IMG/VR virus record: IMGVR_UViG_3300006922_000229 | Location: 1 to 21,298 of that record | Reading direction: 5' to 3' (one strand) | Length of the DNA: 21,298 nucleotides | Source of the DNA: a virus | Shown here: in pieces, positions 220 to 20,610 of the stretch | How the letters are laid out: each line of letters starts with the position of its first letter | How positions within the stretch are numbered: position 1 is the first letter of the stretch | Program-made: the position numbers and the translations under genes | The notes under the pieces: model-generated | What the model was told of the DNA's origin: nothing | Seen by the model: only the letters and a program-made list of their open reading frames with translations | The model's database searches: none

Positions 220-227
220 ATACCTTT
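220..227 (+). promoter_or_regulatory. possible host-type promoter -7 element for the first operon
   Basis: TACCTTTA directly after the terminator differs from the Bacteroidota -7 consensus TAnnTTTG only in the last base and lies 26 bases before the ATG at 254. There is no clear TTTG -33 element; only T-rich terminator sequence is at the right distance. A promoter is needed here because a terminator precedes the operon, but this exact site is a weak call. Confidence 0.3.
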
Positions 228-253
228 ATAGAAAACAATAACTAACTAAAGAA

Positions 254-1120
254 ATGACAGAGGAACAAACTACACAAAATATGCTAATGGAACTTATAAA
301 AGAGGAGTGTACAATAAACACTACCGAAGTTATGGAGTACCCACCTACAGCATTGAGTTTAGGCGAAAAAACAATAGACACAAAAGGTGGCGAATTAACG
401 TTTCCTATACCAATAGGAACTTATGGGAACTTTAGCTTTGTACAAGCACCACCTAAAACAAAGAAAACATTTTTTGTATCACTACTTGCTTCAGTGTATT
501 TGAGTGGTGGAAACAATTTTGGCGGTAAGATAAAAGGACATAGAGAGGGCAAGTGCTTAATACACTTTGATACAGAGCAGGGGCATTGGCACTCTCAACG
601 AGTATTTAAAAGGGTTGTAGATATGGCTAATGTAAAAGACGTTGGTTGCTACCAGACCTTTGCATTAAGAACGATAAGCTACAAACAAAGATTACAATTT
701 ATAGAGTTTATACTTAAAGAAAACAAAGACAAAAATGGTCTTGTAATAATAGATGGTATTGCCGACCTTGTGAGTGATGTAAACAACTTAGAAGAAAGCA
801 ATTTATGTGTTCAGAAAATAATGGAATGGAGTGCTAAATTTAATTGTCATATCATTACAGTAATACATAGCAATTATGGTAGTGATAAACCAACAGGACA
901 CTTAGGAAGTTTTTTAGAAAAGAAAACAGAAACACAGATACAATTAGAGGCAAACACAGTTAATAAGGAATGGGTTACAGTAAGCTGTAAGCGGTCAAGG
1001 GGTTATGCCTTTGAAACGTTTAGCTTTAGTATTAACGAATTTGGACTACCTTTTGTAGTTGGCGAGATATACGACCCATTAGAATATTTTGTAGTACCTA
1101 AAAAGAAATTATTAGAATGA
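254..1120 (+). CDS. RepA/DnaB-like AAA ATPase (AAA_25 type), probable replicative helicase
   Basis: This 288-residue protein has a RecA-fold ATPase layout. A Walker A-like loop APPKTKKT lies at 65-72, an acidic segment FDTEQG at 105-110, a Walker B strand LVIID at 163-167, a conserved H-S-N at about 205-207, and a GxxGS-like segment GHLGS at 215-219. This order matches the RepA-like hexameric helicases (AAA_25) found in plasmids and phages, which unwind DNA ahead of replication. The P-loop is unusual: Lys stands where Gly normally precedes the catalytic Lys. No primase domain is present. It is the first gene of the early operon, lies downstream of the SSB-like gene, and overlaps the next gene by ATGA, which fits a replication role. 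A RecA-like recombination ATPase is an alternative. Confidence 0.75.
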   Translation: MTEEQTTQNMLMELIKEECTINTTEVMEYPPTALSLGEKTIDTKGGELTFPIPIGTYGNFSFVQAPPKTKKTFFVSLLASVYLSGGNNFGGKIKGHREGKCLIHFDTEQGHWHSQRVFKRVVDMANVKDVGCYQTFALRTISYKQRLQFIEFILKENKDKNGLVIIDGIADLVSDVNNLEESNLCVQKIMEWSAKFNCHIITVIHSNYGSDKPTGHLGSFLEKKTETQIQLEANTVNKEWVTVSCKRSRGYAFETFSFSINEFGLPFVVGEIYDPLEYFVVPKKKLLE

Positions 1121-1596
1121 AGAAACACGGACAAATAAAATACCCATACTTTATAAACGAGTGTGCAGCTTATATTGGTAAGCTAAGAAATTTAACCAAT
1201 TACGATTTAAAACTAACATATACTAAATATGACAGAGGTTATCAAAATGAGGTTGTAGATATTTTAGGCGTACAAGGGGAATTAATTTTTTGTTATTATT
1301 TAGATAAGTTAGATATACCCTATACCGCTACAAAATTATTATCTAACAAGCCATTAAAAGAGCCAGATGTAATTGTAAAGGGAAAAAAAATAGATGTTAA
1401 AGCAGTAAGGAAAACAGCTAAATTTTTAGCAGTAAACCAAGAAGCCCACAAAAAAGATAAGGGTGTAGATACTTATGTATTTATTAGAGTAGATGATTAC
1501 AATAACGCTACTTATTGGGTTTATTCTTATGATGAGGTAGATAGTTGGGAAGTAAAAAAACTAACGTATACTAACGCATATATATTACCGATATGA
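1117..1596 (+). CDS. putative PD-(D/E)XK nuclease-like protein
   Basis: The 159-residue protein has a likely nuclease core: an acidic helix with E55 in GVQGEL, then PDVIVKGKKIDVKAV with D84, D93 and K95, which fits the D...(D/E)xK pattern of the restriction endonuclease-like fold. Asn107 and Gln108 a little further on could complete the site. The length would suit a Holliday-junction resolvase or a small endonuclease acting in phage replication or recombination, but I do not recognise a named family. The start ATG overlaps the stop of the ATPase gene by 4 bases, and its own stop overlaps the sigma factor start in the same way, so the three are probably translationally coupled. Confidence 0.55.
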   Translation: MKKHGQIKYPYFINECAAYIGKLRNLTNYDLKLTYTKYDRGYQNEVVDILGVQGELIFCYYLDKLDIPYTATKLLSNKPLKEPDVIVKGKKIDVKAVRKTAKFLAVNQEAHKKDKGVDTYVFIRVDDYNNATYWVYSYDEVDSWEVKKLTYTNAYILPI

Positions 1597-2087
1597 AAAA
1601 AAGTCTTGTAGAAGTGGCTTATCAACGCCATCAAGATTGGTTAAGAGTTGTTTATGCCTTTGGGTGTAATAAAAGCACCGCAGAGGACATAGTACAAGAA
1701 ATGTATATACAACTTATCCAAGACGTTGATAAGGGATTAGACCTATGGCACAATGAAGATGTAAATATATATTATTGTTGGAAGGTGCTAAGGGGTATAT
1801 ACTTAAACACCCACAAAAAAGAAACAAGACAAATAAAGGAATACATAGAAGAAATAGGCGAACTTCAACAAATAGAAGAATTAGGAATAGATGAGGTAGA
1901 ATACGCTAAACAAAAAAATCAAATAGACGATATAATGAACGATATGTATTGGTACGACAGGAAAGTGTTTGAGATTTGTGCAAGTGGTAAAAGCGTTGCA
2001 GGATTGAGTAGGGAAACAGGCATAAGCTATTATTCATTATACAACACTTATGTAAATGCAAAGAAACATATAAAAGATAAATTATGA
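1593..2087 (+). CDS. phage-encoded RNA polymerase sigma factor, ECF-like
   Basis: The 164-residue protein has the two-domain layout of small sigma-70 family factors. Region 2 spans about residues 8-75 and contains AEDIVQEMYIQL (30-41), close to the ECF region 2 signature EDIVQEVF. After an acidic linker (about 82-108), region 4 spans about 110-164 with a helix-turn-helix at 134-160 (SVAGLSRETGISYYSLYN). It would direct host RNA polymerase to phage promoters. It lies in the early operon between a nuclease-like gene and a small Cys protein, with ATGA overlaps on both sides. The repeated non-host motif in front of late genes (7352, 8884, 16429, 18297, 20579) is an obvious candidate target; that link is inference. 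A non-sigma HTH regulator is the main alternative. Confidence 0.7.
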   Translation: MKKSLVEVAYQRHQDWLRVVYAFGCNKSTAEDIVQEMYIQLIQDVDKGLDLWHNEDVNIYYCWKVLRGIYLNTHKKETRQIKEYIEEIGELQQIEELGIDEVEYAKQKNQIDDIMNDMYWYDRKVFEICASGKSVAGLSRETGISYYSLYNTYVNAKKHIKDKL

Positions 2088-2828: not shown

Positions 2829-2847
2829 TTTGTTTATAATTTGTTTA
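2826..2847 (+). repeat. tandem 11-bp direct repeat next to a promoter
   Basis: TAATTTGTTTA occurs twice without a gap (2826-2836 and 2837-2847). The first copy includes the stop codon of the previous gene. The second copy contributes the TTTG of the promoter -33 element at 2840-2843. The 11-base period is about one helical turn, so both copies face the same side of the DNA. It could be an operator, or simply a duplicated -33 box. Confidence 0.6.
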
Positions 2848-2870
2848 TAATAAAAAAGTTTGTACATTTG
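2840..2870 (+). promoter_or_regulatory. Bacteroidota-type promoter (TTTG-N19-TACATTTG)
   Basis: TTTG at 2840-2843, a 19-base spacer, then TACATTTG at 2863-2870. This is an exact match to the Bacteroidota primary sigma consensus TTTG-N19/20-TAnnTTTG. Transcription would start at about 2875-2880, with the first ATG at 2888. It should drive the second early block using unmodified host polymerase, and it is the best evidence in the window for the host group. Confidence 0.8.
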
Positions 2871-3529: not shown

Positions 3530-3648
3530 ATATTTGGGACGATTACATAGACGCACCAGACGAAATAAGCACTTGTAGAATGTGCGACACAGAAACTAAC
3601 GGACAAACATACTGTTCTGAAACTTGTAAAAATTATGACCTTGAATAA
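3526..3648 (+). CDS. 40-residue zinc-ribbon-like protein
   Basis: The ORF starts at an ATGA overlap and reads MNIWDDYIDAPDE, then C17-x2-C20 and C30-x3-C34 in STCRMCD and YCSETCK. Two Cys pairs about ten residues apart in a 40-residue protein suggest a single zinc-binding knuckle. The function is unknown. It overlaps the exonuclease gene by 14 bases, so the two may be co-translated. Confidence 0.6.
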   Translation: MNIWDDYIDAPDEISTCRMCDTETNGQTYCSETCKNYDLE

Positions 3649-4414
3649 AATAAGATTATTAGATGGAAAACTATACGACAAAGCAGAGTTGCTTAAACGT
3701 ATGTTAGATGACGAGTTTTACTATGGCGAACTAAATAGGTTAGCACTTAGTAGTAGTTCTCTTAAAACGCTTCTATCAAGCCCTAAGACGTATAAGTTTA
3801 GTTTGGAGTATGGTAGCCCATCAAGTCAAGCGTTAAGAGATGGTTGGTTATTTCATACCGCTATATTAGAGCCAAACGTTTTCGAGGCACAAACATTTAT
3901 AGACGTACAGAGTAAAAACACAAAGAAGTTTAGAGAAGCTAAAGCAGAAAATCCAAGAGTGTTCACAGCTAAGGAACGAAGCGATGCGGAACGTTTAGCA
4001 GATGCGTTTTTAAGAAACGAACACGCAAAGGAACTAATAAGGAATAGCGAGTTTGAAGTACCTGTAATAGGCGAGGTAATGGATATGCCATTTAGAGGTA
4101 AGGCAGATGTATTAGGCAAGGATAAAATAGTAGACCTTAAAACCACAACAGACATAAAAGGGTTTAGTTGGAGTGCCAATAAATACGGATATGACGTACA
4201 ATGCTATTTGTATTGCAATCTATTCCAAAAAGATTATAAAGATTTTTATTTCTTAGCTTTAGATAAAGGCAGTCTGGATATTGGTATATTTAACTGTTCA
4301 GAAGAATTTTACTTTAGAGGCGAAGAAAAAGTAGAAAAAGCACTTGACCTATATAATAAGTTTTTTATAGAGGGTGCAGATTTAGATAACTATTGTTTAA
4401 CAGGGGAGTTATGA
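3635..4414 (+). CDS. RecE/Cas4-like PD-(D/E)XK exonuclease
   Basis: The 259-residue protein carries the motifs of the phage exodeoxyribonuclease VIII-like (PDDEXK_1 / RecB-nuclease) family. It has H74 in GWLFHTAILEP, an acidic residue near E147, D158 in FRGKADVLG, D167-L-K169 in KIVDLKTTTD, and the Q189-x3-Y193 motif in VQCYLYC. Such enzymes degrade one strand of double-stranded DNA ends to load an annealase in phage recombination. No RecT/Erf-type annealase is next to it in this window; the SSB-like protein might partly serve. It overlaps the zinc-ribbon ORF by 14 bases and the next gene by ATGA. Family assignment is strong, substrate polarity is inferred. Confidence 0.8.
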   Translation: MTLNKIRLLDGKLYDKAELLKRMLDDEFYYGELNRLALSSSSLKTLLSSPKTYKFSLEYGSPSSQALRDGWLFHTAILEPNVFEAQTFIDVQSKNTKKFREAKAENPRVFTAKERSDAERLADAFLRNEHAKELIRNSEFEVPVIGEVMDMPFRGKADVLGKDKIVDLKTTTDIKGFSWSANKYGYDVQCYLYCNLFQKDYKDFYFLALDKGSLDIGIFNCSEEFYFRGEEKVEKALDLYNKFFIEGADLDNYCLTGEL

Positions 4415-4821
4415 AAATAGAAGAAAAAATAAAATTTTTAAATAAAAATACGCCAATAGTTAATACTTTCAATAAAGATACTGTTGTTAATTGTATGCAT
4501 TGCAATCAAACTTATTATGCTTATGAATGCAGCATAGAAGATGATAAAATTTTATGCAAAGATATAATTAATTGTGATGGCTCAATTATAGATTGGATTG
4601 TTAAAAACAAAAAAAAATCAACTTCAACCAATAAGAGAACTAATAACAAAAATAATAAGAAAATTAAATTTATCCCTGCAGATGAACACACGATGACTTA
4701 TAAAGTAAGGGGTAATACGCCAAGACCATCTGCCGCAAGAAACTATATGTGGCTAAAGCATAACAAAAAATGGAATGCAATTAACAAAAAAAATGAAGCA
4801 AAAAAAACACAGAATAATTAA
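4411..4821 (+). CDS. hypothetical protein with Cys-rich zinc-ribbon-like N-terminus
   Basis: The 136-residue protein starts at the ATGA overlap at 4411; a TTG six codons upstream (4393) is less likely. Cys at 28, 31, 40, 49 and 55 (CMHC first) suggest a zinc ribbon. A low-complexity Asn/Lys-rich stretch follows (about 67-85), then a basic C-terminal tail that resembles nucleic-acid-binding tails. The base composition is even more A-rich than that of neighbouring genes. No known family is recognised. Confidence 0.6.
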   Translation: MKIEEKIKFLNKNTPIVNTFNKDTVVNCMHCNQTYYAYECSIEDDKILCKDIINCDGSIIDWIVKNKKKSTSTNKRTNNKNNKKIKFIPADEHTMTYKVRGNTPRPSAARNYMWLKHNKKWNAINKKNEAKKTQNN

Positions 4822-4832
4822 AACTATAAAAA

Positions 4833-5003
4833 ATGAAATTTGATTTAAAGATTGAGTATTTAGGAAAGAAAGAAAAAAAAGGCGATACGGAAAAAGATAT
4901 GTATCACTTATCGTTTAAGACGTATAATGCAGAGATTACAGGTAAGTTTGAACGTAGTGAGATACGACACCTTATACAACAATTAGACAACGCAATAATA
5001 TGA
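4833..5003 (+). CDS. small hypothetical protein
   Basis: The 56-residue ORF (MKFDLKIEYLGKKEKKGD...) fills what would otherwise be a gap, and its stop overlaps the ATG of the DUF3310 gene by ATGA. It alternates strand-like and charged segments and ends in a short helix (SEIRHLIQQLDNAI). No family is recognised. The tight coupling with the next gene is the main evidence that it is real. Confidence 0.6.
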   Translation: MKFDLKIEYLGKKEKKGDTEKDMYHLSFKTYNAEITGKFERSEIRHLIQQLDNAII

Positions 5004-5227
5004 GAGCAACATATTTACATTACGAGAATGGTAAGGGCTATGACGTAATAGACTTTATAAAAGACTACAACCTTAATTTTAACAGAGGTAATATTATTAA
5101 GTATATTTGTAGAGCAGGTAAAAAAGAAAGTGAATTAAAGGACTTAGAAAAAGCTGCTGATTATTTAAGACGAGAAATAGAATACATAAGAAACGAACAA
5201 GAAAAATGGATAGAGAAGAACAAGTAA
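5000..5227 (+). CDS. DUF3310 family protein
   Basis: The 75-residue protein contains YDVIDFI (14-20), NFNRGNIIKYICRAGKK (26-42) and DLEKAADYLRREIE (48-61). This is the signature of DUF3310 (SaV-like), a widespread small phage family that may bind nucleotide or DNA and usually lies among early genes. The length matches the conserved core. Its biochemical role is not established. The next gene begins 22 bases before its stop. Confidence 0.85.
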   Translation: MRATYLHYENGKGYDVIDFIKDYNLNFNRGNIIKYICRAGKKESELKDLEKAADYLRREIEYIRNEQEKWIEKNK

Positions 5228-5589
5228 TAAACGAAGTAATAAGCGACAAGCACCTAAACTACTTAAAGAGTGTACTAATAGCCCAACTACTATTAGAGGC
5301 AAACGATGAACTAAAAGGAAGTAAAGCGTTTAGACAGAACATAAAATACCAAGTAGGCAAGACTAATAAACTATTAGAAGAAGTATATCAAGAGGGGTTT
5401 AATACGGTATACCACAACAACCCAGAGATGTGCATAAACGTCCTCAACAAAATAGATGGCTTAATACACAAAATAAAAACAGCTTCTATTGACGAACTTG
5501 TAATGATAGATGCCTTAGTAGATAAGTATTTTGAAAACAAAGACGAGATAAACGAAACACAAACCGCAGAATTTTTAAAACTAAACTAA
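5206..5589 (+). CDS. hypothetical early protein, all-helical
   Basis: The 127-residue protein is predicted to be almost entirely helical, rich in Leu, Asn, Glu and Lys, without Cys clusters, membrane segments or known catalytic motifs. The start at 5206 overlaps the DUF3310 gene by 22 bases. A GTG start for the Mom-like gene follows its stop without a gap. Its place in the operon suggests a replication or DNA-metabolism accessory role, but I do not recognise it. Confidence 0.65.
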   Translation: MDREEQVINEVISDKHLNYLKSVLIAQLLLEANDELKGSKAFRQNIKYQVGKTNKLLEEVYQEGFNTVYHNNPEMCINVLNKIDGLIHKIKTASIDELVMIDALVDKYFENKDEINETQTAEFLKLN

Positions 5590-6225
5590 GTGGAAGTTAA
5601 AAGCATAAATACTTTTGAAACACACGACTGGCTATTAAATAAACACTATGCTAAACGAATACCAAGTATAAGTTATTCCTTTGGGTTGTATATAGGTAAT
5701 GCTTTAGAGGGTGTTTGTACTTTTGGCAAACCTGCAAGTAATCCTTTATGTGTTGGAGTTTGTGGCGAACATAATAGTAAATATGTTTATGAGTTAAACA
5801 GATTAATAACAAATGACGATTTACCAAAAAATAGTTTGTCTTTTTTTGTTTCTAAATGTTTAAAAATGTTGCCACCTTTAATAATTGTGAGTTATGCAGA
5901 TACTTCGCAAAATCACAATGGATATATTTACCAAGCAACTAATTGGATTTACACAGGGTTATCTGCAAAAAGAACAGAGAGGTATGATATTAACAATCCT
6001 AACAAGCACAGTAAGTCAGTAACGGAAAACAAAAAATTAAACTATGATGATTTAGCAGTAAGGGAAAGACCACAAAAGCACCGATATATATATTTTACAG
6101 GAAGTAAAAAACAAAATAAAAAATGGCTTAAAGAATTAAATTATAAAATACAAGAATATCCAAAAGGACAAAATAAAAACTATGATGCAAGTTACAAACC
6201 TAAAACACAAATAAAACTATTTTAA
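5590..6225 (+). CDS. Mom-like DNA modification protein (GNAT-fold, adenine methylcarbamoylation family)
   Basis: The 211-residue protein starts with GTG directly after the previous stop. It resembles the phage Mu Mom family: HYAKRIPS near 19-26, FGLYIGNALEGVCTFGKPAS (31-50), YELNRL (67-72), SFFVSKCLKMLP (84-95) and VSYADTSQNHNGYIYQATNW (100-119). Mom converts adenine to N6-methylcarbamoyl-adenine and protects phage DNA from many restriction enzymes; the fold is a modified GNAT. The C-terminal about 60 residues are Lys/Asn-rich and basic, which would suit DNA contact. A methyltransferase gene follows one gene downstream. Family placement is from pattern memory; the exact chemistry in this phage is not shown. 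Confidence 0.75.
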   Translation: MEVKSINTFETHDWLLNKHYAKRIPSISYSFGLYIGNALEGVCTFGKPASNPLCVGVCGEHNSKYVYELNRLITNDDLPKNSLSFFVSKCLKMLPPLIIVSYADTSQNHNGYIYQATNWIYTGLSAKRTERYDINNPNKHSKSVTENKKLNYDDLAVRERPQKHRYIYFTGSKKQNKKWLKELNYKIQEYPKGQNKNYDASYKPKTQIKLF

Positions 6226-6227
6226 AT

Positions 6228-6752
6228 ATGACACTACAACAACTTAAAGAAGAACTAAACAAATACTATAAATTTGATATATCAGAACGCAATAGACAAC
6301 GTGAATACTCATACGCACGAAAGGTGTATTGTAGATTAGCAAGAGAGTTAGGGTATACGTTTCAATCATTAGGGCAAGAGATAGGACTAAAACACGATGC
6401 AGCGTTATATCATTATAGAGATTTTAATGTAGTTAGTGATATGGATAAAAAAATATTCAATAAGACAATAAGAAGATTAGGGTTACCTATTGAGCAATGC
6501 GCAATTAAAAAGAAAATAAAGCCAATAGCAGATACGCTTAAAACACAAAACCCTAAGACACATAAAGAGGCACTAATAAACGAACTAATAGACATAGTAA
6601 GCAAGTGGGAAGATAACACATTAGAAAACTTTATAAACACAAGACTAAAGATATACAACAAACTAATAGAAACAACTAAACCACAAAAGAAAATAAAAGA
6701 AGTAAAAGGTGCTACATTAAACAGACCTGTTAAAAACCCTGTACTATGCTAA
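6228..6752 (+). CDS. protein with DnaA domain IV-like helix-turn-helix
   Basis: Within this 174-residue protein, residues 22-66 (RQREYSYARKVYCRLARE..., then LGQEIGLKHDAALYHYRDF) follow the pattern of the DnaA C-terminal DNA-binding domain, where an Arg-rich helix is followed by the GRDHSTVLHA signature. Here the signature becomes LKHDAALYHYR. No AAA+ domain is present, so it is not an initiator ATPase. It may bind an origin or DnaA-box-like sites, or act as a transcription regulator. The rest is helical, with a basic C-terminus. It overlaps the methyltransferase gene by 7 bases. Confidence 0.6.
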   Translation: MTLQQLKEELNKYYKFDISERNRQREYSYARKVYCRLARELGYTFQSLGQEIGLKHDAALYHYRDFNVVSDMDKKIFNKTIRRLGLPIEQCAIKKKIKPIADTLKTQNPKTHKEALINELIDIVSKWEDNTLENFINTRLKIYNKLIETTKPQKKIKEVKGATLNRPVKNPVLC

Positions 6753-7354
6753 TAACAAACGAAGACAATATGGAACTAATGGCAAGGTATGAGGATAATT
6801 ATTTCGACCTTGCTATTGTAGACCCGCCTTATGGGATTGGTGGTGGTGCAAATACTAAAAAAATGAATGTTGATTGGGATAATACAATACCAAATAAAAA
6901 TTATTTTACAGAATTATGTAGAGTTAGCAAAAATCAAATCATTTGGGGAGGTAATTATATGAGTAAAAAAATACCTTTTTATTCAAATCATACTATCATT
7001 TGGGATAAGGAAAATGGAGATAGTTTTATGAGTGATGGAGAAATAGCTTTTACATCAATAAAAAAACAAACAACAAAATTTTTTAGGTTATTTTGGATGA
7101 GCAATATGATGAAAGCAAAAGAAAAACCTTTAATACATCCAACACAAAAACCAATACAACTTTACGAATGGCTTTTAATGAATTACGCAAAAGAAGGGGA
7201 TAAAATATTAGACACACATTTAGGTAGTGGCTCAATAGCTATTGCGTGCCATAATTTAGGATATGACTTAACAGCTTGTGAATTGGATAAAGATTACTAC
7301 AACGCCGCGATAAAAAGAATAGAGCAACACAAAGCACAACAAAGGTTATTCTAA
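6746..7354 (+). CDS. DNA methyltransferase, N6-adenine or N4-cytosine (DPPY type)
   Basis: The 202-residue protein has catalytic motif IV DPPY at 26-29, HPTQKP at 131-136, the AdoMet-binding motif LDTHLGSGS at 155-163 and CELDKDYY at 178-185. The order IV then X then I is that of beta-class amino-methyltransferases. The length is short, which leaves a small target recognition domain, typical of phage orphan methyltransferases. It would methylate specific sites in phage DNA to evade host restriction; no restriction enzyme partner is adjacent. It is the last gene of the early region and is followed by the first late-type motif at 7352. Confidence 0.9.
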   Translation: MLITNEDNMELMARYEDNYFDLAIVDPPYGIGGGANTKKMNVDWDNTIPNKNYFTELCRVSKNQIIWGGNYMSKKIPFYSNHTIIWDKENGDSFMSDGEIAFTSIKKQTTKFFRLFWMSNMMKAKEKPLIHPTQKPIQLYEWLLMNYAKEGDKILDTHLGSGSIAIACHNLGYDLTACELDKDYYNAAIKRIEQHKAQQRLF

Positions 7355-7383
7355 AAAAAAAGTAATTCTGTTTATATATTATT
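7352..7383 (+). promoter_or_regulatory. late promoter-like element, copy A
   Basis: CTAAAA-like A-rich box from 7351, then TTTATATATTATT at 7371-7383. It has the same 19-base spacing between the upstream box and the TATATATT core as the other copies. It sits between the methyltransferase stop and the small terminase start (ATG at 7406), at the early/late boundary. It matches the other copies, not the host TAnnTTTG consensus. Confidence 0.55.
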
Positions 7384-7405
7384 GAATAAACAATCTTTTT
7401 CAATT

Positions 7406-7675
7406 ATGGACAAAAGAAAAAATAATGGTGGCGCAAGAAAAGGCGCAGGAAGAAAACCAAAGGCACAGGAACAAAAGCTAATAGAACGCTTAGACGCTAT
7501 AATAGACAAAGACGAAGCATTGGCAAAATTAGGAGAGTTGGTAGCTAAAGGCGATATGAGAGCAGTACAACTGTATTTAAGTTATCGTTATGGCAAACCA
7601 AAGGAAAGCGTAGACATAAACAGTTCAGAGGGCTTAAACATCAATTTTAGAGATTTAATTAAATTCGTAGACTAA
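7406..7675 (+). CDS. terminase small subunit
   Basis: The 89-residue protein begins MDKRKNNGGARKGAGRKPKA. The GGARKGAGRKPK basic motif is typical of small terminase subunits in many phages, which recognise phage DNA for packaging. A helical oligomerisation region follows. I prefer the ATG at 7406 over the TTG at 7382, because the upstream codons overlap the promoter-like element and the family normally starts just before the KGAGRK motif. The large terminase gene starts 3 bases after its stop. Confidence 0.8.
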   Translation: MDKRKNNGGARKGAGRKPKAQEQKLIERLDAIIDKDEALAKLGELVAKGDMRAVQLYLSYRYGKPKESVDINSSEGLNINFRDLIKFVD

Positions 7676-7678
7676 CGA

Positions 7679-8887
7679 TTGATTAACGTACATAGCAAAT
7701 ACAAAACTATTGTAGGCGAAAACAGTAGATACTACATAGTAAGTGGTGGGCGTGGGTCTGGTAAGTCATTTTCAGTAAACGCCCTTTTGGTAATGCTAAC
7801 ATACGAAGCAGGACACACAATACTATTTACACGCTATACCCTAACCTCTGCATACATATCCATTATACCTGAATTTATAGACAAGTTAGAACTGTTTGGA
7901 TTTACACAACACTTCCATATAACTAAGGACGAAATAATAAACAAACAGACAGGAAGTAAAATAATATTCAGAGGTATAAAAACATCAAGTGGCGACCAAA
8001 CCGCAAACCTAAAATCATTACAGGGCATTACAACTTGGGTGGTTGATGAAGCAGAGGAACTAACAGACGAACAGAAGTTTGACACTATTGACTTGTCGGT
8101 AAGACAACAAGGCAAACAAAACAGAGTTATCTTAATATTAAACCCAACTACAAAAGAGCATTTTATATACAAACGTTTCTTTGAGGATAGAGGGGTACAA
8201 GAGGGTAGCAATATAACCAAAGGCAATACAACCTACATACATACCACATACTTAGACAACATAGACAACCTCTCTAAAAGCTACATAGAGCAGATAGAAC
8301 AAATGCGACAACGTAGACCTGAGAAGTACAAACAACAAATGTTAGGTGCGTGGTTAAACAAAGCAGAGGGTGTTATATTTAATAATTGGACAATAGGCGA
8401 GTTTAAGCGTAAAGGTGTATCCGTATGGGGACAGGATTACGGATTTGCAGCAGACCCAACAACACTAATAGAAACAAACATAGATACAAGCACTAAAACA
8501 ATATATCTAAGGGAATGCGTGTACCTACCAAGACTAACCACATCACAAATAGCTGAACTGAATTTAAAACACGCAAGAGATGGTTTAATAATAGGGGATA
8601 GTGCAGAGCCACGATTAATCACAGAAATAAAAGCAAAGGGGTGCAATGTAAAGCCATCAATTAAAGGGCAGGGGAGTGTAACGTATGGTATATCTCTTTT
8701 GCAAGATTACGACCTTGTTGTAAGTTCAGATAGTACAAACCTCATCAAAGAACTAAATAACTATCGTTGGTTAGAACGCAAATCAAATACACCAATAGAC
8801 AAATACAACCACTTAATAGATGCGGTTAGGTATGCAGTAGGTTATCAATTACAAAACCCAAATAGAGGTAAGTATATTGTTCACTAA
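7679..8887 (+). CDS. terminase large subunit
   Basis: The 402-residue protein has an N-terminal packaging ATPase with Walker A GGRGSGKS (23-30), Walker B TTWVVDE (118-124) and coupling motif NPT (155-157). The C-terminal RNase H-like nuclease has acidic residues D253 (GQDYGF), D307 (IIGDS) and D381 (HLIDAVRY). The layout is that of PBSX-type (Terminase_3) large subunits. It cuts concatemeric DNA and drives it into the prohead through the portal. The start is TTG at 7679, 3 bases after the small subunit stop; no earlier ATG in this frame covers the N-terminus. Confidence 0.92.
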   Translation: MINVHSKYKTIVGENSRYYIVSGGRGSGKSFSVNALLVMLTYEAGHTILFTRYTLTSAYISIIPEFIDKLELFGFTQHFHITKDEIINKQTGSKIIFRGIKTSSGDQTANLKSLQGITTWVVDEAEELTDEQKFDTIDLSVRQQGKQNRVILILNPTTKEHFIYKRFFEDRGVQEGSNITKGNTTYIHTTYLDNIDNLSKSYIEQIEQMRQRRPEKYKQQMLGAWLNKAEGVIFNNWTIGEFKRKGVSVWGQDYGFAADPTTLIETNIDTSTKTIYLRECVYLPRLTTSQIAELNLKHARDGLIIGDSAEPRLITEIKAKGCNVKPSIKGQGSVTYGISLLQDYDLVVSSDSTNLIKELNNYRWLERKSNTPIDKYNHLIDAVRYAVGYQLQNPNRGKYIVH

Positions 8888-8916
8888 AATTATTTAAAAA
8901 CGTTTATATATTAATA
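8884..8916 (+). promoter_or_regulatory. late promoter-like element, copy B
   Basis: CTAAAATTATTT at 8884-8895, then TTTATATATTAATA at 8903-8916, 12 bases before the ATG at 8928. Core and spacing match copies D and E. It lies in the 40-base gap after the large terminase and would start the tail gene cluster. Confidence 0.65.
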
Positions 8917-8927
8917 ACAACAAGTAT

Positions 8928-9572
8928 ATGAATGTTAATTTAAGAATACCGACAACCCTAAACGAGATAACCTTAGGACAGTATCAAGAATATGCAAAGT
9001 TAGAAGGACTAAGCGAAACAGACCTACAACTAAAGACCATTGAGATATTTTGCAACGTGCCACCAATAGTAGTGCGCAATATGAAAGCTACAGACATAGT
9101 AGAGATATGTAGTATCATTAGTGGTATGTTCGATACTAAGCACCAACTAATATCAATGTTTAAATTAAACGGTGTTGAGTATGGGTTTATACCATCGCTT
9201 GAAGATATGAGTTTTGGCGAGTATGTGGACTTAGATACCTTTATTGGCGATAACGATAATTTGCATAGAGCAGTAAACGTACTATACAGACCAATAGAAC
9301 ACAGACAGGGCAATAGATACACGATAAAAGAGTATGACCCTAACACAAGCGAAATAGCAAAGGATATGCCTTTAGATGCTGTACTTGGTGCGGTTGTTTT
9401 TTTTTACAATTTAGGCAAGGACTTATCGATAGCTATGCTGAACTGTTTGGACAAGAAGAACGAGCAGACCTTAGCGGAGTATCTAACTTCAATGCCAAAT
9501 GGGGGTGGTACAATTCAATCTATGGACTATCTAACGGAGATGTTACAAAATTTGAACATATCACTAAATTAG
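8928..9572 (+). CDS. tail assembly chaperone, short (unshifted) form
   Basis: The 214-residue protein resembles the first tail-cluster protein of flavobacterial phages (IPTTLNEITLGQYQEY near the N-terminus, VLYRPIEHRQGNRYTI near 117-132). Tail assembly chaperones bind the tape measure during tail assembly and are usually made as a short and a -1 frameshifted long form. Here the zero frame runs through a T9 run (9397-9405) and then to the stop at 9572, while an overlapping -1 frame stays open to 9661. Calling it a chaperone rests on position, the frameshift architecture and the typical sequence of the extension. Confidence 0.65.
   Translation: MNVNLRIPTTLNEITLGQYQEYAKLEGLSETDLQLKTIEIFCNVPPIVVRNMKATDIVEICSIISGMFDTKHQLISMFKLNGVEYGFIPSLEDMSFGEYVDLDTFIGDNDNLHRAVNVLYRPIEHRQGNRYTIKEYDPNTSEIAKDMPLDAVLGAVVFFYNLGKDLSIAMLNCLDKKNEQTLAEYLTSMPNGGGTIQSMDYLTEMLQNLNISLN
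9398..9404 (+). other. -1 ribosomal frameshift slippery heptamer T TTT TTT
   Basis: In the zero frame the codons are GTT GTT TTT TTT TAC, so T TTT TTT (9398-9404) is a perfect X XXY YYZ heptamer inside a run of nine T. After a -1 slip both tRNAs can still pair fully with TTT. The -1 frame is open from 9344 to the TGA at 9659-9661. I could not define a downstream pseudoknot by eye. Confidence 0.6.
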
Positions 9573-14516: not shown

Positions 14517-16426
14517 AAAAAACAGTAGAAATAAAAGTTGATAGTAAACAAGCAGAAAAAAATCTTAAAGAAATAAACTCAACTATTGACGACCAAAGAG
14601 CAATATTGGTATTGTTAGAGGAAGAATATATAAAAGCAAAAAAAGCCCTTGATGATTATACAAAGTCTGGAAAAGTAAATCTTGCGCAAGAAAAACAATT
14701 AAAACAAGCAGTATCCGAACGTAAAGACGCATTAACTGACCAACGTTTAGGATTGAAAAAATTAGCTGTTGAACAAAGAGCAGCTACAACTTCTGTTAAA
14801 GATTATAGAAAAGAGCAAAAAGAAAATACTAACATTGTAAGGGCTATTGATAAACTTACAGGGGGTTTTGCCACAAAAATAATAAAACTAACAAAGGGGT
14901 TTAAATCAAGTTTAAAAGGAATAAAAGGTTTTGTCGGTGGCTTAAGTGGTGTAAAAAAAGCACTAATCGGAACAGGTATTGGGGCATTAGTTGTTTTAGT
15001 TGGAACACTTGTAGCAAACTTTGATAAAATAAAAGAAAGTCTTTTTGGTATATCTAAGGAAACTAAAAACACAGTAAAATCTGCTGAAAAAACTGCATCA
15101 GCTTCTCAAGAACAATTAGATGCTTTAAATTCAAGTGAAAATATTTTAAGGGCGCAAGGAAAAAGTGAAAAACAAATAAGAGATTTAAAAAAACAACAAA
15201 CAGATGAAACAATTACAGCCCTTGAAGCACAATTAGAAGCGCAAAAAACTGTTAGACAATCACAAATAGACACTGCAAAAAGAAACAAAACAATCCTTGA
15301 GGGAATTTTAAATTTTATAACAGCACCTTTAAAATTATTAACTAAAAGCATAGACAGTATTGGTGCAAAGTTTGGTAAAGATTTTGGTTTAACGGAAAGC
15401 ATTGAAAGTTTTAATGAAGCTGTTGCAGGAAAATTATTTAGTGGAATAGACGAAGAAGGCGATGAAGCTATAAAAGAAACAGAAAAACAACTTTTAAAAT
15501 TAAAAAATGCAAGGGCTAATTTTGAATTACAAGATAAAAAGGACAACGAGAATAAAGCAAAAGAAAAAAGAGATAAAGAGTTAAAAGATGCACAAGAACT
15601 TGAGGATTTAAAAAACAGAATAAGAGAAGCAAGTGCTAATAAAGAAGATGAAAGAAGGGCATTAGAATTACAAAAAATAAAAGAAGAAAACCAAAAACTA
15701 ATAGATGAAGCAAAAGCTAAAGGTTTATTAACAGAAGAATTGCAAACATCTTTAAATGAAAGATTAGCAGCTAAACAAGCGGAATTTGATGAAATTGACA
15801 GACAAAGAAGAGAAGAAAAAAACGCTAAACAATTAGAAGAAACTAAACTACTAAACGAACAACTCGCTACAGCAGAAACAAATTTACAACAAGCTAAAGC
15901 CAATGCAATACAAGGTGGTTTACAAGTTATAGGGACTTTAGCAGGAAAGTCTAAAGCAGTGGCTAAAACATTATTAGTTGTAGAAAAAGGTTTAGCAATA
16001 GCGCAAGTTATTTCAAATGCTGCGAGGGCGATTGCACAAGCGAAAGCAAATTTGGCTGCCACACCTGCTGTTATTGGTTTAGTACCAAACCCTGCTTATG
16101 TAATACAAGCAGCCGCAACTGCTAAAGGCATATTATCAACTAAATTAACCGCAGCCACGTCAGTTGCAACTATTGCTGCACAGGCAATAGCAGGATTAGG
16201 CGGTGGCGGTGGTGGTGGCGGTGCAAGTGTTGGTGGCTTAGGCGGTGGTGCTTCAGCTGAAACACAACCCCCACAATTCAATATTGTAGGTGCAACAGAA
16301 ACAAGCCAATTAGCGGAAGCGGTAGCAGGACAAACACAAGAGCCAGTACAAGCGTATGTTGTAGCTAATGACGTAACAACCGCACAAAGTTTAGAAAACA
16401 ATATTGTTGAGGGTGCGACCCTATAA
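14507..16426 (+). CDS. tail tape measure protein
   Basis: The 639-residue protein has long N-terminal and central coiled coils rich in Lys, Glu and Gln (about 10-110 and 340-470), a hydrophobic segment GIGALVVLVGTLVANFDKIK near 157-176, an Ala-rich hydrophobic region (about 475-545), a Gly-rich linker (about 564-583), and a C-terminus with AYVVANDVTTAQSLENNI. This layout fits the rod that sets siphovirus tail length and later helps DNA cross the inner membrane. At about 0.15 nm per residue it would predict a tail of roughly 95-100 nm. A long antisense ORF here is a composition shadow. Confidence 0.8.
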   Translation: MAIEKTVEIKVDSKQAEKNLKEINSTIDDQRAILVLLEEEYIKAKKALDDYTKSGKVNLAQEKQLKQAVSERKDALTDQRLGLKKLAVEQRAATTSVKDYRKEQKENTNIVRAIDKLTGGFATKIIKLTKGFKSSLKGIKGFVGGLSGVKKALIGTGIGALVVLVGTLVANFDKIKESLFGISKETKNTVKSAEKTASASQEQLDALNSSENILRAQGKSEKQIRDLKKQQTDETITALEAQLEAQKTVRQSQIDTAKRNKTILEGILNFITAPLKLLTKSIDSIGAKFGKDFGLTESIESFNEAVAGKLFSGIDEEGDEAIKETEKQLLKLKNARANFELQDKKDNENKAKEKRDKELKDAQELEDLKNRIREASANKEDERRALELQKIKEENQKLIDEAKAKGLLTEELQTSLNERLAAKQAEFDEIDRQRREEKNAKQLEETKLLNEQLATAETNLQQAKANAIQGGLQVIGTLAGKSKAVAKTLLVVEKGLAIAQVISNAARAIAQAKANLAATPAVIGLVPNPAYVIQAAATAKGILSTKLTAATSVATIAAQAIAGLGGGGGGGGASVGGLGGGASAETQPPQFNIVGATETSQLAEAVAGQTQEPVQAYVVANDVTTAQSLENNIVEGATL

Positions 16427-16428
16427 AT

Positions 16429-16460
16429 ACAAAAATAATTAAAAAACATTATATAATAAT
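16429..16460 (+). promoter_or_regulatory. late promoter-like element, copy C
   Basis: ACAAAAATAATT at 16429-16440, then ATTATATAATAAT at 16448-16460, ending directly at the ATG at 16461. Spacing is the same as copies D and E; one core base differs (TATAATAAT for TATATTAAT). It sits between the tape measure and the protease gene. Confidence 0.6.
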
Positions 16461-17507
16461 ATGCGAATAGTAGAACTAATTTTAGACGAAGAACAAGAAA
16501 TAGGTATTGAAGCTATTAGCGTAGTGGAAAACCCTGCAATAGAGGAAGATTTTATAGCTTTAAAAAGCCAAGAATTTAAACTTGCAGAGGTAGACAAAGA
16601 AAAGCGTATTTTAATGGGTGCTTTATTGATACCTAACAAGCCCATATACAGACGTAATGGCGAAGATGAGTATTATATATATTTTTCAAAAGATACGGTC
16701 TTAAAAGCGTCACAAATGTACCTTATGCAAGGTAAACAAAACAACTCAACCTTAGAACACCAATACGAAATAAACGGACTATCATTAGTAGAGAGTTGGA
16801 TAGTAGAGGACAAGGTACACGACAAAAGCGTAAAATACGGAATGGATTTACCTTTAGGAACGTGGGTTGGAAGTGTTAAGGTTAATAACGAACAAATTTG
16901 GAATGAGTTTGTTAAGACAGGCAAAGTAAAAGGTTTTAGTATAGAGGGGTATTTTGCTGATAAGATGGAACGCCCACAGGAAAAAATAAACGACTTTAGT
17001 AGTGATGAACTATTAAAAGAAATAGACCAAGACGAAGCGGAGTATTTACTTAGCGAGATACGAGCCATCATAAAAAACGATAAGCGAGTAAAGGGTGGTA
17101 AGAAGATGATACTTGAAAGCTACACCGATTATCCAAGTGGCGTAAAGAACAACGCAAAGCGAGGTTTAGAACTTAACGAAAAGGTAAACAACAAATGTGC
17201 AACCCAAGTAGGAAAAGTTAGGGCGCAACAATTAGCACAGGGCAAACCTATTAGCGTAGAAACTATTAAGCGTATGTATTCTTATTTGTCAAGAGCAGAG
17301 GAATATTACGATGAAAGCGACACGACTGCTTGTGGTACTATCTCTTATTTATTATGGGGTGGTAAGGCAGGTAAACGTTGGGCATTAAGCAAACTAAAAG
17401 AGTTAGACCTTATAGACCTTAAAGCACCTTGTCAAGCAGGATATGAGCAGTACGGAATGAAAATGAAAAACGGTAGATTAGTACCTAATTGTATTCCTAT
17501 TAAATGA
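16461..17507 (+). CDS. XkdF-like prohead protease with C-terminal extra domain
   Basis: The 348-residue protein has an N-terminal XkdF/S78-like serine protease domain: VVENPAIEEDFIAL (21-34), ILMGALLIPNKPIYRR (50-65), H100 in NSTLEHQ, VESWIVED (110-117), and S160 in KGFSIEG. H100 and S160 are the likely catalytic pair. It would cleave scaffold and capsid during head maturation. From about residue 212 a second conserved domain follows (NAKRGLELNEK, CATQVGKVRAQQ, RMYSYLSRAEEYY, ACGTISYLLWGG), ending in a Cys-containing tail (PCQAGYEQYGM, PNCIPIK). That fusion is common in flavobacterial phages; its role is unknown to me. Confidence 0.8.
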   Translation: MRIVELILDEEQEIGIEAISVVENPAIEEDFIALKSQEFKLAEVDKEKRILMGALLIPNKPIYRRNGEDEYYIYFSKDTVLKASQMYLMQGKQNNSTLEHQYEINGLSLVESWIVEDKVHDKSVKYGMDLPLGTWVGSVKVNNEQIWNEFVKTGKVKGFSIEGYFADKMERPQEKINDFSSDELLKEIDQDEAEYLLSEIRAIIKNDKRVKGGKKMILESYTDYPSGVKNNAKRGLELNEKVNNKCATQVGKVRAQQLAQGKPISVETIKRMYSYLSRAEEYYDESDTTACGTISYLLWGGKAGKRWALSKLKELDLIDLKAPCQAGYEQYGMKMKNGRLVPNCIPIK

Positions 17508-18290: not shown

Positions 18291-18296
18291 CAAAAT

Positions 18297-18328
18297 ACAA
18301 AATTAATTTTTAACCATTATATATTAAT
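18297..18328 (+). promoter_or_regulatory. late promoter-like element, copy D
   Basis: ACAAAATTAATT at 18297-18308, then ATTATATATTAAT at 18316-18328, ending directly at the ATG at 18329. It is one of the best copies, in front of the scaffold and major capsid genes, which need the highest late expression. Confidence 0.7.
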
Positions 18329-18955
18329 ATGAACACGAACGATATGATTAGTAAAATCAAAGAAGTTCTAAACCTTAGCGAAGAAGTTAAGTTAGAACAA
18401 CAAGCGTTAGAAAACGGTACTGTATTAGAAGCAGAAGCGTTTGAGAGTGGCAATGAAGTATTTATTGTTACCGAAGATGAAAAAGTAGCTGTTCCTGTTG
18501 GCGAATACCAATTAGAGGACGGACGTATTTTAGTAGTAGCCGAAGAGGGATTGATTGCAGAAATTAAAACCGAAGAAGCGGAAGAAGAAACCGAAGAAGT
18601 AGAAGCAACGGAAGATGTGGAACTTGAAGAGAAAGAAGAAGAAAAAGAGGTTTATGCTACTAAAGAGGAATTAGCTGAGGTTAAGTCAATGCTTGAAGAA
18701 ATTAAGTCAATGTTAGAGCCAAAAGAGGATTTAAGCGCAGACGAATTAGGAAACCTTATGACCGAGGAACTTTGCAAACACGACAAAGTGGAACTAAGCG
18801 AAGTGCCAGAAGAAGTACAGGAAGAACTAAACCAACCTGCTGCTGAGCCAATTCAAGCTAACCCAGAAACAAAACAAAACCTATCTAAATTCAATATCTC
18901 ACAAAACAGAAGAATGAGTACATTGGATAGAGTAATGGCAAAATTTAATAATTAA
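18329..18955 (+). CDS. capsid scaffold protein
   Basis: The 208-residue protein is very acidic: an N-terminal segment with VAVPVGEYQLEDGRILVV (53-70), a Glu-rich stretch at 82-108, a short coiled coil at about 111-131 with the repeat KSMLEE-I-KSMLE, and a C-terminal basic tail (NRRMSTLDRVMAKFNN) likely to contact the coat protein. Composition, size and position directly before the major capsid gene fit a scaffold that guides prohead assembly and is then removed, probably by the XkdF-like protease upstream. 23 bases separate it from the capsid gene, without a promoter motif in between, so the two are probably co-transcribed. Confidence 0.75.
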   Translation: MNTNDMISKIKEVLNLSEEVKLEQQALENGTVLEAEAFESGNEVFIVTEDEKVAVPVGEYQLEDGRILVVAEEGLIAEIKTEEAEEETEEVEATEDVELEEKEEEKEVYATKEELAEVKSMLEEIKSMLEPKEDLSADELGNLMTEELCKHDKVELSEVPEEVQEELNQPAAEPIQANPETKQNLSKFNISQNRRMSTLDRVMAKFNN

Positions 18956-18978: not shown

Positions 18979-19914
18979 ATGAGTGTAAACATTGTATCAT
19001 CAAGTTATAGCGGGGAATTCAGCGGCAAATATATAGCCGCAGCGCTTCTCTCGGCTGACACATTAGACAAAGGGCTAATTACAATTATGCCTAACGTTAA
19101 GTTTAAGTCTGTAATCAAAAAGGCTTCAACTGACGACATCGTAAAAGACGCTACTTGCGACTTTCAAACTGGACAAGGGACTTTAACTCTTGAAGAAAAA
19201 ATCCTTCAACCAGAGGAATTTCAAGTAAACCTCGACATTTGTAAGAAAGATTTGCATAGCGATTGGGAAGCTGCTCAAATGGGATATTCTGCATTTGACA
19301 ACCTACCTGCAAACTTTTCTGATTTTGTATTGGCTCACGTTGCTGCAAAAGTAGCTGACCGTACAGAAAGAAACATTTGGTCTGGAGATACTGGAACTTC
19401 TGGACAATTCGACGGATTTGCTACATTGTTAGCTGCCGATGGCGATTTACCTGCAGGACAAGACATTGTTGGTACTGCTGTAACGGCTGCAAACGTTGTT
19501 GATGAATTAGGCGATGTTGTAGATGCTATTCCTACTGCTGTTTACGGAAGTGATGACTTAGTAATTTACGCTGCTTCTAATGTTATTCGTGCATATACTC
19601 GTGCATTAGGTGGTTTTCAATCTGGTGGACAAGGTGCTGCAGGTTATGAAAACAAAGGAAACAACCAATCTTTAGGGTCTTTATTCTTTGATGGTATTCC
19701 TGTTGTTCCTGCTCGTGGTGCTGCTGACGATATGATTATCGCTGCTGAAAAATCTAACTTATTCTTTGGTACAGGTATCTTAAATGACCTTAACGAAGTA
19801 AGAGTTATTGATATGGCTGAAACTGACGGAAGCCAAAACGTTCGTGTAGTGATGAGATTTACAGCAGGTGTACAATACGCCCAAGTATCTGACATTGTTT
19901 ACAGAACTGTATAA
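18979..19914 (+). CDS. major capsid protein (HK97-fold expected)
   Basis: The 311-residue protein starts MSVNIVSSSYSGEFSGKYIAAALL and continues with LDKGLITIMPNVK, the pattern of coat proteins in Bacteroidota phages. The size is right for an HK97-fold coat without a delta domain. Codon use differs clearly from its neighbours: GCT, GTT, GGT, TCT, GAC and AAC are preferred, as in highly expressed flavobacterial genes. It follows the scaffold and is followed by a strong terminator, both typical for the main coat gene. Confidence 0.8.
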   Translation: MSVNIVSSSYSGEFSGKYIAAALLSADTLDKGLITIMPNVKFKSVIKKASTDDIVKDATCDFQTGQGTLTLEEKILQPEEFQVNLDICKKDLHSDWEAAQMGYSAFDNLPANFSDFVLAHVAAKVADRTERNIWSGDTGTSGQFDGFATLLAADGDLPAGQDIVGTAVTAANVVDELGDVVDAIPTAVYGSDDLVIYAASNVIRAYTRALGGFQSGGQGAAGYENKGNNQSLGSLFFDGIPVVPARGAADDMIIAAEKSNLFFGTGILNDLNEVRVIDMAETDGSQNVRVVMRFTAGVQYAQVSDIVYRTV

Positions 19915-20565: not shown

Positions 20566-20578
20566 ATACCCATACAAT

Positions 20579-20610
20579 ACAAAATAAATTAGTTTTGTTT
20601 ATATATTAAT
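20579..20610 (+). promoter_or_regulatory. late promoter-like element, copy E
   Basis: ACAAAATAAATT at 20579-20590, then TTTATATATTAAT at 20598-20610, ending directly at the ATG at 20611. The core is the same as in copy B. It lies just after a terminator, so a promoter is required here, which supports reading the motif as a promoter. Confidence 0.7.

Follow-up and report, generated by a model that had tools for sequence, protein, structure and literature searches.

Sigma factors encoded by phages and serving late genes have long been known, and the cascades of SPO1 (gp28, gp33/gp34) and T4 (gp55) are examples in which such a protein moves the host RNA polymerase from early to later genes. Among bacterial sigma factors the simplest plan for comparison is that of the ECF (group 4) proteins SigL, SigH, SigR and sigma E, which possess regions 2 and 4 only, and promoters of ECF sigma factors carry a -35 box of the AAC type. 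In PMC9723704, on a flavobacterium, a CGT -10 box is taken as a sign of promoters that belong to ECF sigma factors, and the same paper together with PMC6847099 gives TTTG / TAnnTTTG as the consensus of flavobacterial host promoters. In leaderless bacterial genes, as described in PMC3160421, the -10 box is situated about 12 nt upstream of the start codon. Few flavobacterial mRNAs are leaderless, the figure given in PMC9723704 for F. psychrophilum being 5.5%.

The DNA analysed here, referred to as the window, is the whole IMG/VR fragment IMGVR_UViG_3300006922_000229 (21,298 bases). It belongs with marine flavobacterial phages that are mostly uncultured, and very probably to a phage in which an early ECF-like sigma factor redirects the host core enzyme to late promoters. 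The likeness to SPO1 and T4 lies in this passage of the host polymerase from early to later genes; the difference, as far as a comparison by description goes, is that here a single step is apparently involved, with an ECF-like protein of two domains and with promoters adjoining start codons. The box geometry relative to the ATG is the same as in the leaderless bacterial genes treated in PMC3160421, but there it is the host primary sigma factor that reads the box.

The sigma factor gene (1593..2087, + strand, an ORF of 164 aa) lies in the early region, within an operon headed by the gene of an AAA_25 (RecA-like) ATPase (254..1120, +; Pfam PF13481, E 5.5e-8). The ATPase gene adjoins the sigma gene in most related contigs, and in most contigs compared the sigma gene keeps the same position in the order AAA, sigma, exonuclease, terminase. 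The first gene of the late arc is a candidate for the terminase small subunit (TerS; 7406..7675, +), which has homologues at the same place and stands beside the large subunit gene (TerL; 7679..8887, +; Pfam Terminase_3, E 2e-32). The major capsid protein (MCP) gene (18979..19914, +), whose homologues in Bacteroides phages bear the annotation 'major capsid protein', was used as a bait for related phages that is independent of the sigma factor.

Several other features of the window and its relatives deserve mention. The terminase is a module of its own: in four contigs (G001, G007, G010, G011) TerL shares 82-99% identity with that of the window, and in G002-G006, G008, G014 and others about 30%, with late genes otherwise similar. 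A full-length Mom-family DNA modification protein is encoded at 5590-6225 (Pfam E 3e-38, PHROG 1384 E 2e-64); a comparison with 19 further contigs gave three distant partial matches and no close counterpart. It is followed by a DnaA C-terminal-like helix-turn-helix protein (DnaA_C) at 6228-6752, whose Pfam match (E 7e-5) is under the cut-off and whose gene is present in 7 of 20 contigs, window included. Positions 1-181, at the contig end, form a perfect inverted repeat (arms 1-88 and 94-181, 5-nt loop), which is most likely a fold-back assembly artefact and not phage sequence.

The first-pass annotation had read the ORF at 1593-2087 as a small two-domain sigma factor, and this was borne out by an AlphaFold model (mean pLDDT 82.5) that matches ECF sigma factors. 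Three helices make up region 2 (protein residues 13-22, 27-46 and 59-90) and three the helix-turn-helix of region 4 (120-130, 135-142 and 146-163), and the linker that joins them (residues 84-98) is flexible and modelled with low confidence. The secondary structure of the model and its structure matches indicate that regions 1.1 and 3 are absent. The best Foldseek matches are ECF sigma factors in transcription complexes (E 2.4e-4 and 7.2e-4). Taken alone, region 4 fits SigL (VIA; Z 9.0, 1.9 A, 65 residues) and region 2 fits SigR (VIA; Z 8.5, 2.6 A, 71 residues), the large whole-chain rmsd being due to a different placement of the two domains. The profile searches suggested in the first-pass annotation gave a divided answer: PHROG 1740 'RNA polymerase sigma factor' matches residues 3-164 (E 6e-7), and Pfam Sigma70_r2 matches residues 10-47 (E 1.6e-4) with 21.9 bits, below its 24-bit cut-off. 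This cut-off, exceeded by one of 25 records, is a proxy in terms of sequence score and not a biological feature; since the window protein lies below it, the protein is termed ECF-like and placed in no named group. A sequence-profile search of solved structures returned no sigma factor (best E 0.27), so that homology to solved sigma factors rests on the fold. Judged from sequence alone the identification would be of moderate strength, and once the structure model is included it is firm.

Relatives of the protein are encoded by at least 593 loci of the viral collection, among the 600 pattern matches listed. A tblastn search with the window sigma factor against 50,697 phage records gave nothing at E 0.01, and an alignment-based scan of genome contigs yielded 174 stretches, among which no bacterial genome or prophage was confirmed. 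For the sigma alignment 52 sequences were used, i.e. the window and 51 of 80 loci; a stop codon led to the exclusion of L064, and others were omitted as near-duplicate or partial. Throughout the alignment W16, F23, G24, E31, D32, V34, M37 and Y38 are invariant in the core of region 2, as are W120, Y121, L138, I144, Y146, S148, L149, Y150 and T152 in the helix-turn-helix of region 4. A lack of core-binding residues in region 2 had been named in advance as evidence against a sigma factor; the segment AEDIVQEMY is conserved in this alignment. The sigma factors of G010 and L020 have EDIVMSMY in place of EDIVQEMY, Q35/E36 being changed in a few members.

The early region carries signals of host type. 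A -7 element at 221..228 (+; TACCTTTA in TATACCTTTA), of the form TAnnTTT with the final G of the consensus absent, lies upstream of the early operon and directly after a terminator-like hairpin (arms 188-200/205-217), and an early promoter at 2841..2870 (+; TTGTTTATAATAAAAAAGTTTGTACATTTG) ends 17 nt upstream of the ATG at 2888. Promoters of the form TTG(TTTAT)-N-TATATTTG, mostly with 15-30 nt from box to ATG, are found in the early regions of both clades distinguished below, that of the window (clade A) and a variant one (clade B). A loose host-promoter pattern gave 223 matches, little above the 173 of the reversed control, and only the tighter TTGTTTAT-like set was used, descriptively. The resulting distribution is relay-like, with the sigma gene among early genes that have host-type promoters and its presumed targets at late genes only.

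The same annotation had pointed to a repeated element in the late half, at 18297 and 20579, unlike the host promoter; both sites hold, and an exact third copy at 16429 had been overlooked. The pattern ACAAA-N16-TATAT-N6-ATG has exactly these three matches in the window, the number expected by chance with up to one mismatch is 0.20, and none of 100 shuffles reached three. With two weaker copies there are five, all on the + strand and all in the late half. The first, weaker one (7351..7383; TTTATATATTATT) has CTAAA as its -35 box, which overlaps the stop codon of the upstream gene, and lies about 22 nt upstream of the TerS ATG at 7406; relatives keep it upstream of TerS, G011 and G017 having the variant CGATATAT of their clade. 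The second, also weaker (8884..8915; CTAA-N16-TTATATATTAAT), overlaps the TerL stop codon with its -35 box and is separated by 12 nt, from box to ATG, from the gene that starts at 8928. The third (16425..16460; ACAAA-N16-TATAT) adjoins the ATG at 16461, the fourth (18293..18328) adjoins the ATG at 18329, whose gene precedes the MCP gene, and the fifth (20575..20610) adjoins the ATG of gene 20611 and is situated downstream of a terminator-like stretch.

The TerS leader directly after the late box (7384-7405 in the window; also in G001, G010, G035, G032 and G034) contains an inverted repeat whose arms vary between genomes and yet remain complementary (GATTG..CAATC, CTTGA..TCAAG). In G032 and G034 it forms a hairpin that resembles a terminator and includes a run of T (-9.3 and -7.3 kcal/mol), and in the window the fold is negligible (-0.2 kcal/mol).

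In related contigs the two-box element is found at a fixed distance from the ATG upstream of the 18329 and 20611 orthologues, and the regions that precede the AAA gene, 19987 and the capsid gene look unlike it. A position matrix was trained on 18 upstream sequences from relatives with the window excluded, and the held-out window sites obtained scores of 39.9, 39.7 and, for the site at 16425-16460, 22.9. Across 20 contigs (508 kb) the matrix gave 33 matches above 20 bits, training sites included, all on the strand of the sigma gene, and none above 20 bits in Markov-simulated sequence (2 Mb per model). Little variation in spacing is tolerated: the + strand has 42 copies of CAAA-N18-TATA-N5-ATG and at most 6 with any other spacing, and a pattern with a 15-N spacer instead of 17 gave nine matches in 30 records, a chance-like number. 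A looser count, of ACAA at every distance before any ATG, showed no clear peak and was uninformative.

In 80 loci selected by the MCP gene (at least two of which overlap training contigs; L128 and L131 are parts of G009 and G019, G009 having been used in matrix training) there were 159 matrix matches above 16 bits, distributed over 66 loci, all on the + strand and 158 of them followed by ATG. Of 64 matches above 16 bits in 25 contigs, 59 are on the + strand within the late arc, from TerS to 20611, which comprises 47% of the bases; the remaining five resemble chance matches, with the possible exception of one that precedes a start codon in G015. The element stands before 58 of 660 ATG-started ORFs of the + strand and 0 of 162 of the - strand, mostly before the same few operon-start genes, and it is not a general start-codon context. 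Nor is it always joined to the ATG: in six genomes (G000, G002-G006) 12 nt separate the box of gene 8928 from the start codon, which it adjoins in others, and the TerS box, at least 20 nt away, is still conserved. G055 has no recognisable site before its 16461 gene, and the sites of G016 are degenerate.

Two side observations were made on the oriented contigs. A gene before the terminase cluster in three of them (G004:23539, G005:13805, G006:18937) has its own late-type element adjoining the ATG, and its N-terminus is ParB-like in our reading of the sequence. In G049 (3639-8240) the capsid end and the homologues of 19987 and 20611 are present twice, with the late element also doubled, which may be either a real duplication or an assembly artefact.

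Gene and element occur together. Related phages with the motif and without the gene, or the reverse, had been foreseen as counter-evidence; the sigma gene was found in all 15 MCP-selected contigs of at least 25 kb. In the first set a sigma profile search detected it in 5/5 contigs of at least 27 kb, and in a diverged capsid group in 10/10 contigs of at least 25 kb (E 2e-27 to 2e-34), where the proteins are 23-31% identical to the window sigma factor. Records without a sigma match are fragments of at most 23.8 kb (9 of 18 in the first set, 7 of 18 in the diverged group), and in G034 the contig ends within the match. The matrix failed to find the element in 14 of the 80 capsid-selected loci; 12 of these (L184-L195) belong to the diverged capsid group, in most of whose members a variant of the element stands at the same genes.

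These variants amount to dialects. Clade A is characterised by an RCAAA -35 box and a TTATATATTAAT -10 box, with CTATATA or CGATATA subgroups, and in G011 and G017 the TerS site, although away from the ATG, has the CGATATA form. Clade B has the same layout and another -10 box, with GAACA/AAACA as -35: six contigs have ACA..N16..TTATATARRT then ATG, two have GTTATA(A/T)TAGT then ATG and one has TTGTTATAAT then ATG. The forms found at the same genes thus include TTATATARRT, GTTATAATAGT and TTGTTATAAT. The AAC-type -35 of clade B is a likeness to ECF promoters, as is the CGT-type -10 of the cultured relative discussed below, and the model aligns with ECF sigma factors; the differences are an identity of only about 10-20%, the position of the window protein under the Pfam cut-off and, in clade A, the TTATATATTAAT -10 and RCAAA -35 boxes.

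The sites of one genome change in concert. Similarity of non-orthologous boxes was 0.733 within genomes vs 0.589 between them, a difference reached by 0 of 2000 label permutations; the site finder used in this test rewards a following ATG and employs clade templates, and five rows were dropped, one of which, with its start mislocated, was re-entered by hand. Independent drift would not give such a result, which speaks for one trans-acting reader, and the sigma factor is the obvious candidate for it. The correlation of box similarity with sigma identity (r 0.65) exceeds that with the capsid (0.48) and falls short of that with the neighbouring AAA gene (0.80, on a separate set without some distant genomes); on 24 common genomes sigma (0.631) is only just ahead of g8928 (0.619). 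Hence the statistics show that there is a trans-acting reader and not which gene encodes it, i.e. they cannot separate the sigma factor from co-inherited genes. On this ground it could be proposed that another early phage protein, an activator or repressor, reads the element and that the sigma factor serves other promoters or is a partner. The AAA gene, correlating at least as well as sigma, and the DnaA_C-like helix-turn-helix protein, also encoded in the window, would be available for this role. We consider the proposal decidedly unlikely, since a sigma target has just this layout of -35 and -10 boxes a fixed distance apart, and the DnaA_C-like gene is present in 7/20 contigs vs sigma in all MCP-selected contigs of at least 25 kb.

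Sigma gene and element also occur in a cultured relative. Nonlabens phage P12024S, which with P12024L represents Inhavirus, was reached via capsid and terminase matches and a profile, and its gp33 is a homologue of the window sigma factor (profile E 8e-9). With 25.3 bits gp33 is over the Pfam Sigma70_r2 cut-off; in the GenBank record it is annotated only as 'containing Sigma-70 region 2'. As in the window, the homologous gene is one of the early genes that precede the terminase genes, host-type promoter matches occur before early genes, and late genes have an element of the same layout; the difference is in the -10 box, which is CGTTA. The pattern AAACA-N16-CGTTA-N7-ATG has five exact sites (0.09 expected; 0/100 shuffles reach five) and a sixth with a 15-nt spacer, the sites being those of gp01, gp05, gp08, gp41, gp44 and gp45.

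The mechanism favoured here is a relay, as the first-pass annotation had proposed, in which the host sigma reads early genes and the phage sigma late ones; computation has lent it support through co-occurrence, the restriction of the element to late genes and concerted variation. The sigma factor would be made early from a host-read promoter, take the place of the host's own sigma on the core RNA polymerase of the host and guide this enzyme to some five late promoters at the heads of the late operons, namely those of TerS, of the gene after TerL, and of 16461, 18329 and 20611. Such a promoter would consist of a -35 'ACA(A)' box, about 16 nt and an AT-rich -10 box (TTATATATTAAT in the window). 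The -10 box normally touches the start codon, its first T lying about 12 nt upstream of the ATG, so that transcription is predicted to begin at or beside the A of the ATG and most late mRNAs would have no leader. The sigma factor as reader, the use of the host core and the start sites are steps that we infer.

It might be argued that the element is read by the host primary sigma or by a host ECF sigma and that the phage protein acts elsewhere. Flavobacteria own several ECF sigma factors (seven in F. psychrophilum, according to PMC9723704), and TTTG is found in some sites, such as that of 20611, by chance. This is nevertheless very unlikely: the late box is without the -7 consensus TAnnTTTG of the host, found at early genes in P12024S and in either clade, and the sites of one genome change together between phage clades, each clade having its own -10 box. 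As for a translation-initiation or leader signal at chosen start codons in place of a promoter, the 158/159 adjoining ATGs and the absence of Shine-Dalgarno sequences in Bacteroidetes, which favour A at -3 (PMC6847099), speak for it, but it is most improbable in view of the boxes conserved away from the ATG at TerS and at g8928 in six contigs, of the mere 58 ORFs in 660 that have the element, and of a -35-like box at fixed spacing, which has no translational reading.

The early phage sigma factor thus remains the preferred reader of the late element. The first-pass annotation knew of no relay with such a target described for flavobacterial phages, and literature searches did not contradict it: nothing on this system was found on sigma factors or late promoters of flavobacterial or Bacteroidetes phages, 'sigma' in passages of PMC4615864 and PMC7077304 being a chemical supplier, and PMC7824862 treating jumbo phages. 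The new points are the element itself, the several dialects in which it occurs, the way it is fused to start codons, and the ECF-like sigma factor with which this lineage pairs it. We lean towards the broader view that a mostly uncultured lineage of marine flavophages has its own ECF-type sigma factor, late promoters fused to start codons and leaderless late mRNAs, and that sigma factor and promoters have co-diverged into at least five dialects.

A late element that varies in concert is what would be expected if the phage reprograms the host RNA polymerase for its late genes. If this is true, the late-gene switch would be decoded for a phage family with at least 593 sigma relatives and a cultured, testable member, P12024S. 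The natural variants of sigma factor and promoter would help to decode how a -10 box is read by a two-domain sigma factor, and the late promoters could serve as orthogonal expression signals in Bacteroidetes. It would also raise the question of how flavobacterial ribosomes handle leaderless late mRNAs.
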